From an uncultured PS1 clade bacterium (GTDB lineage: Bacteria > Pseudomonadota > Alphaproteobacteria > MED-G09), in assembly GCA_902626605.1 (NCBI GenBank), contig CACOFZ010000003.1:87201-151200 (forward strand): a stretch of 64,000 nt of DNA. Reading direction: 5' to 3'. Below the pieces are notes generated by a model. That model saw only the letters and a program-made list of their open reading frames with translations. It was not told where the DNA came from and did no database searches. Shown in pieces: positions 47,876 to 55,740 of this stretch. The translations under genes were made by a program, and so were the position numbers. Numbering within the stretch: the first letter of the stretch is position 1; every line of letters starts with the position of its first letter.

Positions 47876-50101
47876 TTGAGGGGAATAATGAGTCATCCAA
47901 GTCTAGGAAAAAAAACAGCAATTTTTATTAATATTTTTTTAATCTTTATGCTCGTATTTGGTATTTTAGTCAAAACCGCATCAATAAACAAACCAGATAT
48001 AAAGAAAAATATACCTATGCCAAAAGAAAAAAAGGTAAATTCATTAGGTGATATAAATACTCAAAGAATTATTAATGCTAACAATGAGCCACATAATTGG
48101 TTAGCTCATGGAAGAGACTATAATGAGCAAAGATACTCCCCTCTTGATCAAATAAATACAGAAACAATTCAAAATTTAGAACTTGAGTGGTCTTTAGATA
48201 TGGGAACAACTAGAGGTCTAGAAGCTACACCAATAGTAGACAATGGAATAATGTTTGTTTCAAGTACATGGAGTGTTGTTCATGCTGTAGATGCAAAAAC
48301 TGGAGAGGAATTATGGGTTTATGATCCAAACGTTCCAAGAAGTTGGGCAAGAAAAGTATGTTGTGATGTTGTAAACAGAGGTGTAGCTGTTTGGGAAAAG
48401 AAAGTTTATTTTGGAACAATAGATGGCCGTCTTATAAGTTTGGACTCAAAAACTGGAGAAGTTGTATGGGAAATCAATACACTAATTGATAAGGAGAAAG
48501 ACTATACAATCACTGGCGCTCCTAGAATTGCAAATGGAAAAGTTTTTATTGGTAATGGTGGTGCGGATATGGGTGGTGTAAGAGGTTATGTCTCAGCATA
48601 TAATGTGGATAATGGAAATTTAGAATGGCGCTTTTTTACTGTTCCAGGGGATCCATCTCTTCCTTTTGAGCACCCAGAACTTGAAATGGCCGCAGAAACA
48701 TGGACTGGTCAGTGGTGGACAATGGGTGGTGGTGGAACTGTATGGAATTCAATAGTATTTGATCCTGAATTTAATCAAGTATATATAGGTACTGGTAATG
48801 GTTCACCTTGGAATCAACAGATTCGCTCTCCTGGAGGAGGTGATAATTTATTTCTATCATCGATAGTAGCCTTAGATGCAGACAATGGTAAAATGAAATG
48901 GTTTTATCAAACAACTCCCGAGGAAAGATGGGATTATACAGCTACACAAGATATTATGTTAGCTGAAATTTTAGTTGATGGCTCTAACAGAAAGGTTCTA
49001 ATGCAAGCACCAAAAAATGGCTTTTTTTATGTATTAGATAGAGAAACAGGTGAACTTCTCAGAGCAAATAATTATGTTAGAACAAACTGGGCTACACATA
49101 TTGATTTAAATACAGGAAGGCCTGTTCTTAATCCTGATAAAGATTATTATAAAAAAGCCGAATGGATTTTACCGGGTACTTTTGGAGGTCATGGCTGGCA
49201 AGCTATGTCATATGATCCAAAACAAGGATTGGTTTTTATACCTACAATGGAAATTGTTGCTGTTCATAAAGTTAAAGAGTCATACTCAAAAACAGGTCTA
49301 TATAAAATGCAGCCTCAAACTGTAAATACAGGAACTGAATTTAATTTATGGGGAACTGTACCAGATATGTCTGATGGAGAGAGCATACCTCCAATTACAG
49401 GAGAATTAATTGCCTTTGATCCAATTACTGGTAAAACTAAATGGTCAATCCAGCATGAACAATTTTGGAATGGCGGTCCACTTACTACAGCGGGAAATTT
49501 AGTTTTTCAAGGAAACGCATCTGGTTTTTTTGAGGCATATGACTCTCGAAATGGAAAATTAATGTGGTCTAAAAATGCTTATATAGGAATTATGGCTCCA
49601 CCCATAACATTTATGATTGATGGTGAGCAATATATAAGCATTCTAGCCGGTGACGGAGGCTCAAGTAATTTTCTTGGTGATAATTTTGGCGAATGGAGAG
49701 GAAAGCTTGCATCTATAAAATATGGCAACAACGGAAAGCTTTTAACATTCAAACTAGGTGGCAGATCTAAAATAGAAGAAATGCCAGAGAGAGATTTAAA
49801 AATACCTGAACAACCAATCTTAAATGCTAGTTCAAAAGATATTAAGGCCGGTGAAGATATCTATGCGAACTATTGTGCAATTTGTCATGGCAGTGGGGTA
49901 CATGGAAAAACAATAGCTGATTTAAGGTATATGGACTCTTACACTCACGAGAATTTTAGAGAAATAGTCTTAAATGGATTATATGAGGAAAACGGGATGA
50001 AAGGTTTTTCAGACATATTAAATGAAAAAAATGTTTTTGAAGTCCACTCTTACATCGTTGATGTAGCCTCTAAAGAGAGAATTCAAAATCAAAATAATTA
50101 G
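47876..50101 (+). CDS. PQQ-dependent dehydrogenase with C-terminal cytochrome c domain (quinohemoprotein alcohol dehydrogenase-like)
   Basis: GHDWxAHGRDYNEQRYSPL-like start (NWLAHGRDYNEQRYSPLDQIN), vicinal Cys KVCCDVVNRG, tryptophan-docking repeats, C-terminal YCAICHGSGVHG CxxCH. Confidence 0.9.
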   Translation: MRGIMSHPSLGKKTAIFINIFLIFMLVFGILVKTASINKPDIKKNIPMPKEKKVNSLGDINTQRIINANNEPHNWLAHGRDYNEQRYSPLDQINTETIQNLELEWSLDMGTTRGLEATPIVDNGIMFVSSTWSVVHAVDAKTGEELWVYDPNVPRSWARKVCCDVVNRGVAVWEKKVYFGTIDGRLISLDSKTGEVVWEINTLIDKEKDYTITGAPRIANGKVFIGNGGADMGGVRGYVSAYNVDNGNLEWRFFTVPGDPSLPFEHPELEMAAETWTGQWWTMGGGGTVWNSIVFDPEFNQVYIGTGNGSPWNQQIRSPGGGDNLFLSSIVALDADNGKMKWFYQTTPEERWDYTATQDIMLAEILVDGSNRKVLMQAPKNGFFYVLDRETGELLRANNYVRTNWATHIDLNTGRPVLNPDKDYYKKAEWILPGTFGGHGWQAMSYDPKQGLVFIPTMEIVAVHKVKESYSKTGLYKMQPQTVNTGTEFNLWGTVPDMSDGESIPPITGELIAFDPITGKTKWSIQHEQFWNGGPLTTAGNLVFQGNASGFFEAYDSRNGKLMWSKNAYIGIMAPPITFMIDGEQYISILAGDGGSSNFLGDNFGEWRGKLASIKYGNNGKLLTFKLGGRSKIEEMPERDLKIPEQPILNASSKDIKAGEDIYANYCAICHGSGVHGKTIADLRYMDSYTHENFREIVLNGLYEENGMKGFSDILNEKNVFEVHSYIVDVASKERIQNQNN

Positions 50102-50655
50102 TTTTTTTCTGGAAGTGAAGGAGATAGTATTTCTTCTAACTCGATATTAATCTCGCCAGATAAAGAGTTATACTTATCCTTATCTTTTAATTCATCAGGC
50201 AGTTGTTCATTTTCGTTTAACTTTATGTTTAAATTTGTGAGTTTTACAGCCACTGGTGTACCCTTTTTAGTAATTTTTTCAATTTCCATTATTTTTTCTA
50301 AAAGTAACGGATTGTATTCAACAGCATAAAGCCTGGGATCACCCTTCTCTATTCCTTCAGAATCGGTAGATCTTAATAAAAGAAAAATTTCTCCCTTTGT
50401 TTTTTCTAATTTGTTAGGTTCATTTACCCCACTCCATAAAATTTTATAAAGCTGATCATTTTTTGAAAAATCGTTATCTCTATAAGGAATACCCTGCATT
50501 TCTCTTATTGACGAATATGAGATAATAGAAAAAATAAGAACTAAAAAAATAAGAAAAATTTTTATTTTAATAGAAAAATTCGTAAGAAAATTAATACTAA
50601 CTAATAATGCAAATAAAGCTGCATATGCTATTCCAAAAAGTATGAATTGATTCAT
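50098..50655 (-). CDS. Uncharacterised protein with two N-terminal TM helices; third gene of a MotA/ExbB-like operon
   Basis: Two hydrophobic segments then a soluble domain (EKGDPRLYAVEYNPLLLEKIMEI); 1-nt gap from the upstream gene. Confidence 0.7.
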   Translation of the reverse strand: MNQFILFGIAYAALFALLVSINFLTNFSIKIKIFLIFLVLIFSIISYSSIREMQGIPYRDNDFSKNDQLYKILWSGVNEPNKLEKTKGEIFLLLRSTDSEGIEKGDPRLYAVEYNPLLLEKIMEIEKITKKGTPVAVKLTNLNIKLNENEQLPDELKDKDKYNSLSGEINIELEEILSPSLPEKN

Positions 50656-50656
50656 T

Positions 50657-51268
50657 TTACTTTACCCTGCCTGTGATTAATGGTTTTTGCAGTTGATTTA
50701 TATCTAAAACATTACCTTTATCGTCGAGAGTAAATCTTAAGGCTGTAATTTCATCACCGGTTTTTTTTAAAAAAAAGTCATTAAAATAAATTAATTCCAA
50801 TTTAGGATTAATCTTTTCAACTTTTACTTTTACGATTATAGGTCTTGGGCCATGTGACTTATAGTAGAGTAAATTAACAACATACTCTCCTTGCATATAA
50901 CCTCTTATAGTAACAACTTCTTGATTGTTAGGGTTTGCCATCTCAATTCCGTCAATCACTATTCTATCCCCAAGAGCACCTCTGTCATCTCTATCAAGGT
51001 GCATCAATCCAGCTTGTTGACTCTGAAAATAAACAATATTTCCTTCCGGATCTTCTACAATTAAATCAATATCGTCTGGATTACCATCTTTCCACTCAGC
51101 TGAAATAATAAATTCTGCTTTGCTATCAATTTTACCCCCATCTTGCGGTTTTTGAATCAACGCAAATGAAATAAAAAACATAAAGGCAAAGCCTAATAAT
51201 GCATTAAATAATAAATCAGTGAATGCATCTCCATTACTAGACTCAATTGAAAGAATTTTTTTACTCAA
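50657..51268 (-). CDS. Single-TM ExbD/MotB-like protein with DUF2135/YfaP-like extracytoplasmic domain
   Basis: DAFTDLLFNALLGFAFMFFISFALIQ (Asp at TM entry) followed by EWKDGNPDDIDLIVEDPEGNIVYFQ ... GEYVVNLLYYKS. Confidence 0.65.
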   Translation of the reverse strand: MSKKILSIESSNGDAFTDLLFNALLGFAFMFFISFALIQKPQDGGKIDSKAEFIISAEWKDGNPDDIDLIVEDPEGNIVYFQSQQAGLMHLDRDDRGALGDRIVIDGIEMANPNNQEVVTIRGYMQGEYVVNLLYYKSHGPRPIIVKVKVEKINPKLELIYFNDFFLKKTGDEITALRFTLDDKGNVLDINQLQKPLITGRVK

Positions 51269-51893
51269 AATTATTTTCCGTATAAAAAGCTAAATCATTC
51301 AACAGAGAAATAATCCATGTAGCTGAAAAATGAAATTGTATTCTAAGTAAAGTGCTAACAATTAAACCAGTGAGGGTAGTATATAAAGCTACAGCCATTC
51401 CAGAACTCATTGACGATAATGCTATTTTTAGATCCTCTGGACTTGTGCTGTTTAAATCGGCAATAGGTTTTAGCATAAGAATGAATCCTATAATTGTTCC
51501 AAGCAATCCTAATTTTAAAGCAACATCTGATGCAATTACACCATAGCTAATCTTTTTCTCAAACTCTGACTCAAAAGCATTAATTAAAACATCCTTATCT
51601 TCTTTTTTGTCCAAAGAATTAAAAAATTTAGAAACCAGTAATTTTTTATTTTTAAATTCCATATTTTCAAAAGAATTTCTCTCTTCAGAAATAATTTTTG
51701 ATAAATATAACCAATAAATCGATGAAATAACCCATAAACCAACTATTACTTTAGATATTTGACTTTTATCACCTTCCAAAATAATTGCTAATAACCCTCT
51801 TTCATTGAGAATCCATATTCCAAATATAATTAATACTAAAAGAAGGAGTGATCTTAAAACTCCAAGTGATTGATTTTTTGCATTTAATTTCAT
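51261..51893 (-). CDS. MotA/TolQ/ExbB proton-channel family protein
   Basis: KLGLLGTIIGFILMLKPIADLNSTSPEDLKIALSSMSSGMAVALYTTLTGLIVSTLLRIQ matches the MotA_ExbB signature. Confidence 0.82.
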   Translation of the reverse strand: MKLNAKNQSLGVLRSLLLLVLIIFGIWILNERGLLAIILEGDKSQISKVIVGLWVISSIYWLYLSKIISEERNSFENMEFKNKKLLVSKFFNSLDKKEDKDVLINAFESEFEKKISYGVIASDVALKLGLLGTIIGFILMLKPIADLNSTSPEDLKIALSSMSSGMAVALYTTLTGLIVSTLLRIQFHFSATWIISLLNDLAFYTENNFE

Positions 51894-51996
51894 AATTTAT
51901 TTCCTTTTATTATTATATATAATAATTTGAATAGGAATTAATATTTTAATTTTGATTTTAATTATTATTATTACTATAAGGCTTTGAGGTATTAAT

Positions 51997-53333: not shown

Positions 53334-54539
53334 ATGACTGAACACATCTTTAATAATTACAATGATGCAGTTAATGCTTTGAGAATTAAAGATCTAAAGC
53401 AATCACTATATGATGATGGTGAGGTAATTATGGATCAAGTTTTAGTTTGTCTCCATGGAGAAGAACATAAAAAAAGAAGAAAACTTGAGAATAAAATTTT
53501 TACAAGAGAAGTTTTTAAATATTATGAAAATGAAGTTTTCCCTAGAACTATTAATGAAACTCTAGAACCTTATAAAGAATCCGGAAAAATGGACCTAGTA
53601 GATTATGGTTTTAGAGTTTTACTTAATTTAACAGCAGATTTCTCTGGTGTTGATAGACCTGAAAAAACAAAAAAAGAAACTGAAATATTATTAGGTTTAT
53701 TAAAAATTTTTGCATCTGGGGCAACCTTACATCATTCAACAAGAGATCATGAAGAAGTTAAAAATGAGGTAAGAAATGCTCTTAAAAGTTTTGATAAACA
53801 ATTTTTAAAACCATCGATTGAAAGAAGGAAAAATTTAATTAAAAAACAGGCTTATGAAGACTTACCAAGCGACATATTGACTGTTCTTCTTATGAATGAA
53901 GATGATCTAAACCTTCCATATGATGTTCTTCAAAGAGAAATAGCTTTTTATCTATTAGCAGGAGCTCAAACATCAATTCATTCACTTGTTCATGTTTTTC
54001 ATGAGATTCATGATTGGATTAAAAATAATCCTGAAAAAAAAGTTAAATTGAAAGATGATCCAATATTTGTCCAAAAATGCTTCCTCGAAAGCACTAGATT
54101 ACACCCATCAAGCCCAATTGCTTTGAGAAAGCCAGTCTGCCCTGTGAAGCTCCCAGATAATAAGGAAGCTAACTTAGGTGATAGCATTGTTATTGATCTA
54201 TATAATTCAAACAGAGATAAAAAAATATTTGGAGAAGATGCGAATAAATTTAATCCTTACAGAGAGCCACCTAGTGGTCAAAATTTATATGGACTCTCCT
54301 TCGGCCTAGGAATGCATTCATGTATTGGAAGAAATCTTGCAGCAGGTGTTAATTCGAAACCAGATACAGATCCAAATAATCATCATTATGGAACTGTGAC
54401 TATGATTTTAAGAGAGTTAATTTCACGTGATGCTATTCCTGACCCAAATAATAAACCAAAAATGGATGATAAAACAAAAAGACCAAATTGGGGTTATTAT
54501 CCTATAATTTTTTCCTCCAAGGATAAAAATTGTGACTAA
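53334..54539 (+). CDS. Cytochrome P450 (tandem paralog 1)
   Basis: ESTRLHP (ExxR); FGLGMHSCIGRNL heme-Cys loop. Confidence 0.92.
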   Translation: MTEHIFNNYNDAVNALRIKDLKQSLYDDGEVIMDQVLVCLHGEEHKKRRKLENKIFTREVFKYYENEVFPRTINETLEPYKESGKMDLVDYGFRVLLNLTADFSGVDRPEKTKKETEILLGLLKIFASGATLHHSTRDHEEVKNEVRNALKSFDKQFLKPSIERRKNLIKKQAYEDLPSDILTVLLMNEDDLNLPYDVLQREIAFYLLAGAQTSIHSLVHVFHEIHDWIKNNPEKKVKLKDDPIFVQKCFLESTRLHPSSPIALRKPVCPVKLPDNKEANLGDSIVIDLYNSNRDKKIFGEDANKFNPYREPPSGQNLYGLSFGLGMHSCIGRNLAAGVNSKPDTDPNNHHYGTVTMILRELISRDAIPDPNNKPKMDDKTKRPNWGYYPIIFSSKDKNCD

Positions 54540-55740
54540 GTTTGAAACATCAAGTTACGAAACCATAAAATCAGCTCTTGTAAATAGAGATTTAAAACAA
54601 GCATTATATGATGAAGGGAAAGTCATTATGGATGGAGTTTTACTTACTTTACATGGGGATGAACACAGAAAAAGAAGAAAATTAGAACATAAGGTTTTTC
54701 AAAGAGATTTTTTTAAATATTACGAACAAGAGCTTTTTCCAAAAACTTTAAATGAGACAATTTTACCATTTCTTAAAAAAGGAAGCATGGATTTAATTGA
54801 TTTTGGATACAGAATTACAATGAATCTTACAGCTGATTTTGCTGGTATCGATCGAGTAAAAAAAACCCCACAAGAAACAGAAAATTTATTAACTTTAGTC
54901 AAAACTTTCAGTCAGGGAGCAACTTTGGTTCATTCAAAAAGATCTCATGATGAAGTTAATAAAGAAGTTTTGAAAGCATTAGATAAATTTGAGAAAGAAT
55001 TTCTCTCACCTTCAAAACAAAGAAGAGAAAAGTTAATAAGAGAATTTAAAAATAATAAATTAAAAAAAGAGGATCTTCCAAGAGATGTATTAACTATCCT
55101 TTTGATGAATGAAGATAATATAAATTTAAATAACGATCTAATTAAGCGAGAAATAGCTTTTTATCTTCAAGCAGGGTCGCATAGTACAGCAAATTCAATG
55201 ACTCACGCCTTACATGAAATTTTCATCTGGTGTCAAAAAGACCCTCAAAATATTACAAAAATAAGCGAAGACTCGATTTTTCTTCAACGATGTGTTCATG
55301 AAAGTATGAGACTTCACCCTGCGAGTCCTGTTGCTTGGAGAAAATCCCAATGCCCGGTAAGTCTTGAAAAGAATATTAATATGAAAAAAAATGATCTTAT
55401 AATCATGGATCTTCATGAGGCAAATCAAGATAAATCAATCTTTGGTAAAGATTCTCATATATTTAATCCAAATAGAAAAGTTTCAAAAAATCAATTTCTT
55501 TGGGGTTTAACGTTTGGAATTGGTCTTCATATGTGTTTTGGTAGAGATTTAGATGGCGGAGTAGTTCCTAATGAAAATACTGATCCCAGTAATCATCAAT
55601 ATGGTATAGTAACTTTATTGGTTAAAAAAATTCTCAATGAAAATGGATACCCTGACCCAAAAAATATGCCTAAAGTTGACGCAAATACGGAGAGATCAAA
55701 TTGGGCCTCTTACCCAATTATTTTTGGAGAGAAGAAATGA
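54532..55740 (+). CDS. Cytochrome P450 (tandem paralog 2, GTG start)
   Basis: ESMRLHP; FGIGLHMCFGRDL; high similarity to the preceding ORF along its length. Confidence 0.92.
   Translation: MTKFETSSYETIKSALVNRDLKQALYDEGKVIMDGVLLTLHGDEHRKRRKLEHKVFQRDFFKYYEQELFPKTLNETILPFLKKGSMDLIDFGYRITMNLTADFAGIDRVKKTPQETENLLTLVKTFSQGATLVHSKRSHDEVNKEVLKALDKFEKEFLSPSKQRREKLIREFKNNKLKKEDLPRDVLTILLMNEDNINLNNDLIKREIAFYLQAGSHSTANSMTHALHEIFIWCQKDPQNITKISEDSIFLQRCVHESMRLHPASPVAWRKSQCPVSLEKNINMKKNDLIIMDLHEANQDKSIFGKDSHIFNPNRKVSKNQFLWGLTFGIGLHMCFGRDLDGGVVPNENTDPSNHQYGIVTLLVKKILNENGYPDPKNMPKVDANTERSNWASYPIIFGEKK

Follow-up and report, generated by a model that had tools for sequence, protein, structure and literature searches.

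A conserved three-gene locus encodes a candidate MotA/TolQ/ExbB-class membrane complex that is linked to PQQ-dependent dehydrogenase genes in bacteria and carried by phages

We analyzed three adjacent genes, hereafter the trio, on the minus strand (51893-50098) of a 64,000-nucleotide (nt) stretch of DNA, the window, from contig CACOFZ010000003.1 of an uncultured PS1 clade bacterium whose assembly amounts to 1.29 Mb. The trio, its principal features and the gene that converges on it are listed below, with the evidence for each in parentheses (TM, transmembrane; PQQ, pyrroloquinoline quinone).

51894..51933, minus strand: leader of gene 1 with the ribosome-binding-like stretch AAAAGGAAAT (sequence)
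51261..51893, minus strand: gene 1, MotA/TolQ/ExbB-family inner-membrane protein of 210 amino acids (Pfam PF01618, hydropathy, PDB profiles)
50657..51268, minus strand: gene 2, single-TM partner with a periplasmic beta domain, 203 amino acids, TTG start (AlphaFold2)
51215..51217, minus strand: Asp18 codon of gene 2, at the TM entry (conservation among 71 dereplicated relatives)
50660..51118, minus strand: periplasmic beta domain of gene 2, residues 51-203 (conservation, model, hhalign to YfaP)
50098..50655, minus strand: gene 3, two-TM protein with an alpha/beta domain, 185 amino acids (AlphaFold2)
47876..50101, plus strand: convergent PQQ-dependent dehydrogenase gene (TIGR03075)

Gene 1 starts with ATG and overlaps gene 2 by 8 nt, a gap of 1 nt separates gene 2 from gene 3, and the end of gene 3 overlaps that of the convergent dehydrogenase gene by 4 nt. 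The coordinates, strand, order, overlap and gap given for the three genes in the original prediction for this locus are exact. All three trio genes are under purifying selection, with ratios of nonsynonymous to synonymous substitution rates of 0.07-0.27 in comparisons inside the clade, one of which (gene 2 of L009) was saturated.

The product of gene 1 matched the Pfam family MotA_ExbB (PF01618) with an E-value of 5.1e-11 and 42.9 bits against a curated cut-off of 22.9, and the same model was matched by 68 of 68 relatives (E ≤ 0.01). Searching its profile against the PDB returned MotA (8gqy, 1.6e-8, the best match), TolQ (2.3e-6), ExbB (1.9e-4) and also PomA, in agreement with the family originally assigned. 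Hydropathy analysis revealed four hydrophobic segments, corresponding to four predicted TM helices. G129, G132, T133 and T173 never vary among the 68 relatives, and the conserved glycine and threonine residues align with the TolQ channel helices (GLFGTVWG and ALIATAIGL) in the profile comparison. The stretch between TM2 and TM3 has a median length of 64 residues in chromosomal copies, against 24 in copies from virus contigs and 11 in those of reference phages; because the cytoplasmic part is almost gone in the phage versions, the output of the complex would lie in the periplasm rather than in the cytoplasm.

For gene 2, the AlphaFold2 model (predicted local distance difference test score, pLDDT, 90.7) shows one TM helix at residues 14-38, with Asp18 at its entry, followed by an all-beta domain of 12 strands. 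The Asp18 position is occupied by Asp in 69 of the 71 dereplicated relatives and by Val in two; in genus f171, which has FDPLGVMLF, the Asp is displaced, and L281 and L283 likewise depart from the usual TM-entry Asp. Within the beta domain, W59, D66, D68, L91, D94, D95, G97, E117, R122, G127 and T175 are invariant across the 71. hhalign weakly matched this domain with Escherichia coli YfaP over ~75 columns (E 7.2e-5; DxDLxVxxPxG...GxYxVxxxYY), and aligned gene 2 with an ExbD over 15 columns at the TM entry only (E 0.097; AFTDLLFNALLG with PFVDVMLVLLII). None of 21 gene 2 members matched the ExbD/TolR family PF02472 or a Pfam OmpA-like peptidoglycan-binding domain, nor did a fold of the latter kind emerge. 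The Pfam model for DUF2135 (PF09906) gave weak matches below the cut-off in 3 of 21 members (best E 0.032), and in 0 of 41 genomes of relatives did it score above the curated cut-off. Gene 2 had no convincing family in Pfam, NCBIfam or PADLOC, a weak match in PHROGs to phrog_1735 of unknown function (5e-5) and, for its model, a few significant BFVD matches to phage proteins (best 6e-6), and no PDB fold match at E ≤ 1e-3. The domain is of neither ExbD, TolR nor OmpA type, and as judged from the alignments it appears related to YfaP/DUF2135 by fold and not by family membership. The single N-terminal helix with its entry Asp, the beta-rich domain resembling DUF2135/YfaP and the position outside canonical ExbD/TolR, all anticipated in the original prediction, are borne out.

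The model of gene 3 (AlphaFold2, pLDDT 86.7) comprises two TM helices and a small alpha/beta domain, and the basic loop between the helices suggests an N-out, C-out topology. No convincing family was found for it in Pfam, NCBIfam, PHROGs or PADLOC, its relatives share no common Pfam family, and its model had no PDB fold match at E ≤ 1e-3; the best-ranked PDB matches of both the gene 2 and gene 3 models had low TM-scores and were not used. The earlier description of a two-TM protein with an unrecognised soluble domain therefore stands. Several lineages have a lipoprotein-like gene of one family next after gene 3 or a short way beyond the trio, and its product is a possible fourth component:

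L267:6665-7357, lipoprotein-like gene
L275:9358-10065, lipoprotein-like gene
L276:9828-10613, lipoprotein-like gene
L286:4172-4882, lipoprotein-like gene
L287:1879-3009, lipoprotein-like gene
L292:3135-3827, lipoprotein-like gene

Separately, at L138:6689-7537 the gene 3 frame has no stop and stays open through an endolysin (phrog_7) as far as the end of the contig, as a fusion or with an internal start. We rejected a role in lysis on this basis: the endolysin is preceded by a ribosome-binding-like AAGGAG and an ATG, the contig ends there, and the case is single.

The three genes stay together. In the best-scoring 80 IMG/VR loci and the best-scoring 80 genome_contigs loci, profiles located the complete set on a single strand within 1.8 kb in 77 and 78 cases, respectively, and the trio is also kept together in distant relatives. 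The separation of the genes in homologs that the original prediction named as refuting it was not seen. Gene 2 was found in 61 of 385 genomes of the class and 17 of 399 genomes of the phylum, and almost every member of the window's family has the trio at one syntenic place. Additional copies of gene 2 occur: G329 carries a second one (C42:6435-7055) split by a frame change, and G378 has four (C7, C43). The neighbourhoods contained no TonB/TolA-like partner beside the trio, no adjoining flagellar genes and, by neighbourhood inspection, NCBIfam and PADLOC, no homologues of ZorB, ZorC, ZorD or ZorE next to it; the original prediction had noted the same absence of TonB, TolA, flagellar and Zorya effector genes.

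The neighbourhoods did reveal a link to PQQ-dependent dehydrogenases, which is new and had been overlooked in the original prediction. The convergent neighbour in the window scored 617.6 bits against TIGR03075 (cut-off 480) and carries a C-terminal cytochrome c domain of the quinohemoprotein alcohol dehydrogenase type. Of the 80 genome_contigs loci, 69 have a convergent homologue in the vicinity of the trio, and several of the remaining 11 end close by; these 69 could represent one transferred block. Beyond this arrangement, 11 genomes, which span 7 families, have a TIGR03075 gene ≤6 kb from the trio in varied arrangements, compared with an expectation of no more than 0.8. Genome-wide, TIGR03075 is present in 41 of the 55 class genomes in which the trio gave a strong hit and in 77 of 330 others (Fisher test, 4e-13, ignoring relatedness). 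At L291, the trio lies beside PQQ_ABC_bind, PQQ_ABC_repeats and PQQ_ABC_ATP, followed by a TonB receptor-like gene (assigned by eye), pqqB, pqqC, pqqE and the enzyme; at L273, pqqE is directly upstream of gene 1; and at L277, L283, L286 and L288 the trio is beside PQQ_ABC or quinoprotein-relay genes. Each of the two main branches of the gene 2 tree contains PQQ-linked loci, and in some lineages the trio lies away from PQQ genes. The genomic link is strong, though not universal.

Phage carriage of the trio is likewise new and had been overlooked. tblastn identified gene 2 in 27 named phage records, all of Rhizobium or Sinorhizobium phages, comprising Pootjesviridae of ~155 kb, others of 60-171 kb and the temperate phage 16-3, in which the trio corresponds to p038, p040 and p042. 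All three genes were present in the phage records inspected, annotated as hypothetical or unnamed. IMG/VR yielded 274 relatives of gene 2, in contigs that also carry genes for terminase, PhoH and ThyX, and besides the trio no conserved viral neighbours were seen across lineages. The chromosomal gene 2 of L291 is 59% identical to the copy in a virus contig, and the gene 2 tree, read without a root and thus without direction, implies at least two moves between viruses and chromosomes (four by parsimony). In 16-3-type phages and the virus contig L072, a trypsin-like protease gene sits directly upstream of the trio in an operon-like arrangement:

L242:7247-8146, trypsin-like protease gene
L243:4577-5224, trypsin-like protease gene
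L244:4132-4842, trypsin-like protease gene
L245:4075-4797, trypsin-like protease gene
L072:6703-7476, trypsin-like protease gene

By raw count, similar genes also occur within 8 kb of the trio in about a dozen other loci. As a general partner of the trio the protease was rejected, its placement being operon-like only in these phages and L072.

Comparison with known systems places the trio, by the sequence of gene 1, in the MotA/TolQ/ExbB family, and by those of genes 2 and 3 apart from ExbBD, TolQR, MotAB and Zorya. With ExbBD and TolQR it shares the gene 1 family, the GT...T motifs of TM3 and TM4 and a partner whose only TM helix has an Asp at the entry, with a short stretch of ExbD likeness there; it differs in having four predicted TM helices in gene 1 instead of three, an unrelated beta domain on the partner, a third, two-TM subunit and no adjoining TonB or TolA. 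The four-TM plan and the best PDB sequence match (MotA 8gqy) recall the MotAB and PomAB stators, whereas gene 2 lacks their OmpA-like peptidoglycan-binding domain, the cytoplasmic part of gene 1 is small and nearly absent in phages, and flagellar genes do not adjoin the trio. Like Zorya ZorAB, the trio pairs a MotA-type subunit with an Asp-helix partner, but it has neither the long ZorA tail (gene 1 has 210 amino acids) nor a ZorB domain nor ZorC, ZorD or ZorE nearby. YfaP/DUF2135 proteins share the ~75 aligned columns of the beta domain; gene 2 falls below the Pfam cut-off for them, and YfaP has no TM stator helix. Finally, several families have the trio within or next to PQQ-dependent alcohol dehydrogenase clusters (TIGR03075, TIGR03863, TIGR03864, TIGR03866, pqqBCE), yet it is not among the NCBIfam families of those clusters. 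We found no description of the trio in the open-licence literature, which does not prove novelty; with genes 2 and 3 having no family model, its products look like an undescribed complex. In a 2025 survey of MotAB homologues, many proteins of this sort were classed together as generic ion transporters whose function is unknown (PMC12505986).

The families, the topology, the conservation of the set, its phage carriage and the genomic PQQ link are computed results, and they suggest the following working model. Gene 1 would form the ion channel or stator ring of a three-component inner-membrane complex of the ExbB/TolQ/MotA class, and the Asp-bearing helix of gene 2 would sit inside this ring, where ion flow would move or gate it. 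With a linker of only some dozen residues to the helix, the beta domain would stay near the membrane; gene 3 would contribute a second periplasmic domain, and the output would be periplasmic. In bacteria, the complex would serve periplasmic PQQ-dependent alcohol dehydrogenase systems, perhaps by powering a step through which PQQ or its metal ion is supplied or maintained, and phages may carry the trio to perform this task, or a related one in the envelope, in the cells they infect. The gene 1 family, together with the Asp helix and non-ExbD beta domain of gene 2, agrees with the stator-like complex with an unusual output domain first proposed for this locus. The trio most likely works like the ion-driven complexes of the MotA/TolQ/ExbB family, and bacteria probably use it in connection with periplasmic quinoproteins. 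On balance, we lean towards the whole of this reading, namely an ion-driven, stator-type complex with a new periplasmic output domain that works for quinoprotein systems and has been borrowed by phages. A more far-reaching version, in which an undescribed ion-driven machine with a DUF2135-like output and a third subunit is the missing energised component of PQQ systems, taken over and reduced by tailed phages, we put forward only tentatively.

Several points weigh against the favoured reading. A convergent PQQ dehydrogenase homologue was near the trio in 0 of the 80 viral loci, so the core function may lie elsewhere than in the PQQ link. Most genomes do not have a PQQ enzyme gene close to the trio, and 14 of the 55 trio genomes have no such gene (E ≤ 1e-30). 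Asp18 is displaced or missing in some lineages, albeit a minority. The complex itself, with its assembly, ion coupling, rotation, stoichiometry, substrate, exact job and role in phages, is what we infer from genes and single-chain models. A lanthanide-only form of the reading was rejected: the enzyme of the window's group has the motif WDYT and other trio neighbours have WDYD or WDFD, and the occurrence of both types argues against a lanthanide-specific role.

Among the alternatives, the trio may be a gated ion valve and not a motor, in which binding of a ligand or metal to the beta domain opens a channel formed by gene 1 and the gene 2 helix, with ion flux, and thereby control of membrane potential, as the output. 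The polar beta-domain residues are the most conserved part, the cytoplasmic part of gene 1 is minimal in phages and the short gene 2 linker gives little reach, all of which would suit a valve; nevertheless, the structurally known families matched by gene 1 (MotA, PomA, TolQ and ExbB) are all described as force-transducing complexes (PMC9389320), and we consider a valve unlikely. The PQQ neighbourhood might instead reflect hitch-hiking, with a block spread by transfer among bacteria and a trio of general envelope function. This would fit the window's group, in which the trio is convergent and not co-transcribed with the PQQ enzyme, and the same pair is common to SAR86, Pseudomonadales and Myxococcota; but separate lineages in both tree branches show other arrangements, PQQ enzymes and accessory genes, and presence of the enzyme correlates with the trio genome-wide, which leaves hitch-hiking distinctly improbable. 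We are more sceptical still of an anti-phage or superinfection-exclusion system, Zorya-like in kind and carried by phages against competitors: temperate and large phages do carry the trio, gene 1 is weakly similar to ZorA (PADLOC E 8e-6; NCBIfam 2e-4) and the protease gene is directly upstream in 16-3-type phages and L072, whereas ZorB/C/D/E homologues do not adjoin the trio, genes 2 and 3 have no PADLOC match, and the trio keeps one syntenic place in almost every member of the window's family and is associated with PQQ genes, which sets it apart from a defence island. That the trio replaces TolQR or ExbBD in particular lineages is very improbable: although a single operon with two MotA_ExbB proteins and one ExbD is all that the window's family has apart from gene 1, the trio-bearing G025 also has several MotA_ExbB and ExbD proteins, gene 2 has no ExbD/TolR fold, and no TonB- or TolA-like partner is seen beside the trio.

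That operon, with two MotA_ExbB genes and one ExbD gene, lies just outside the window (G000:C3:79348-80738), and a separate TolQR was not found in any window-family member searched. Elsewhere in the window, at 53334-55740, two adjacent and similar cytochrome P450-like genes (401 and 402 amino acids) adjoin an amidohydrolase-like gene, as assigned by eye.

Known jobs exist for few kinds of ExbB/MotA-class complexes, and genes of this class have hardly been discussed in phages. The finding raises the questions of which energised step is required by PQQ-dependent dehydrogenases and for what purpose phages introduce a stator-like complex into the cells they infect. If our favoured reading is true, it would add to this class a complex that has a third subunit and a new output domain, is linked genomically to periplasmic alcohol oxidation and is widely carried by phages.

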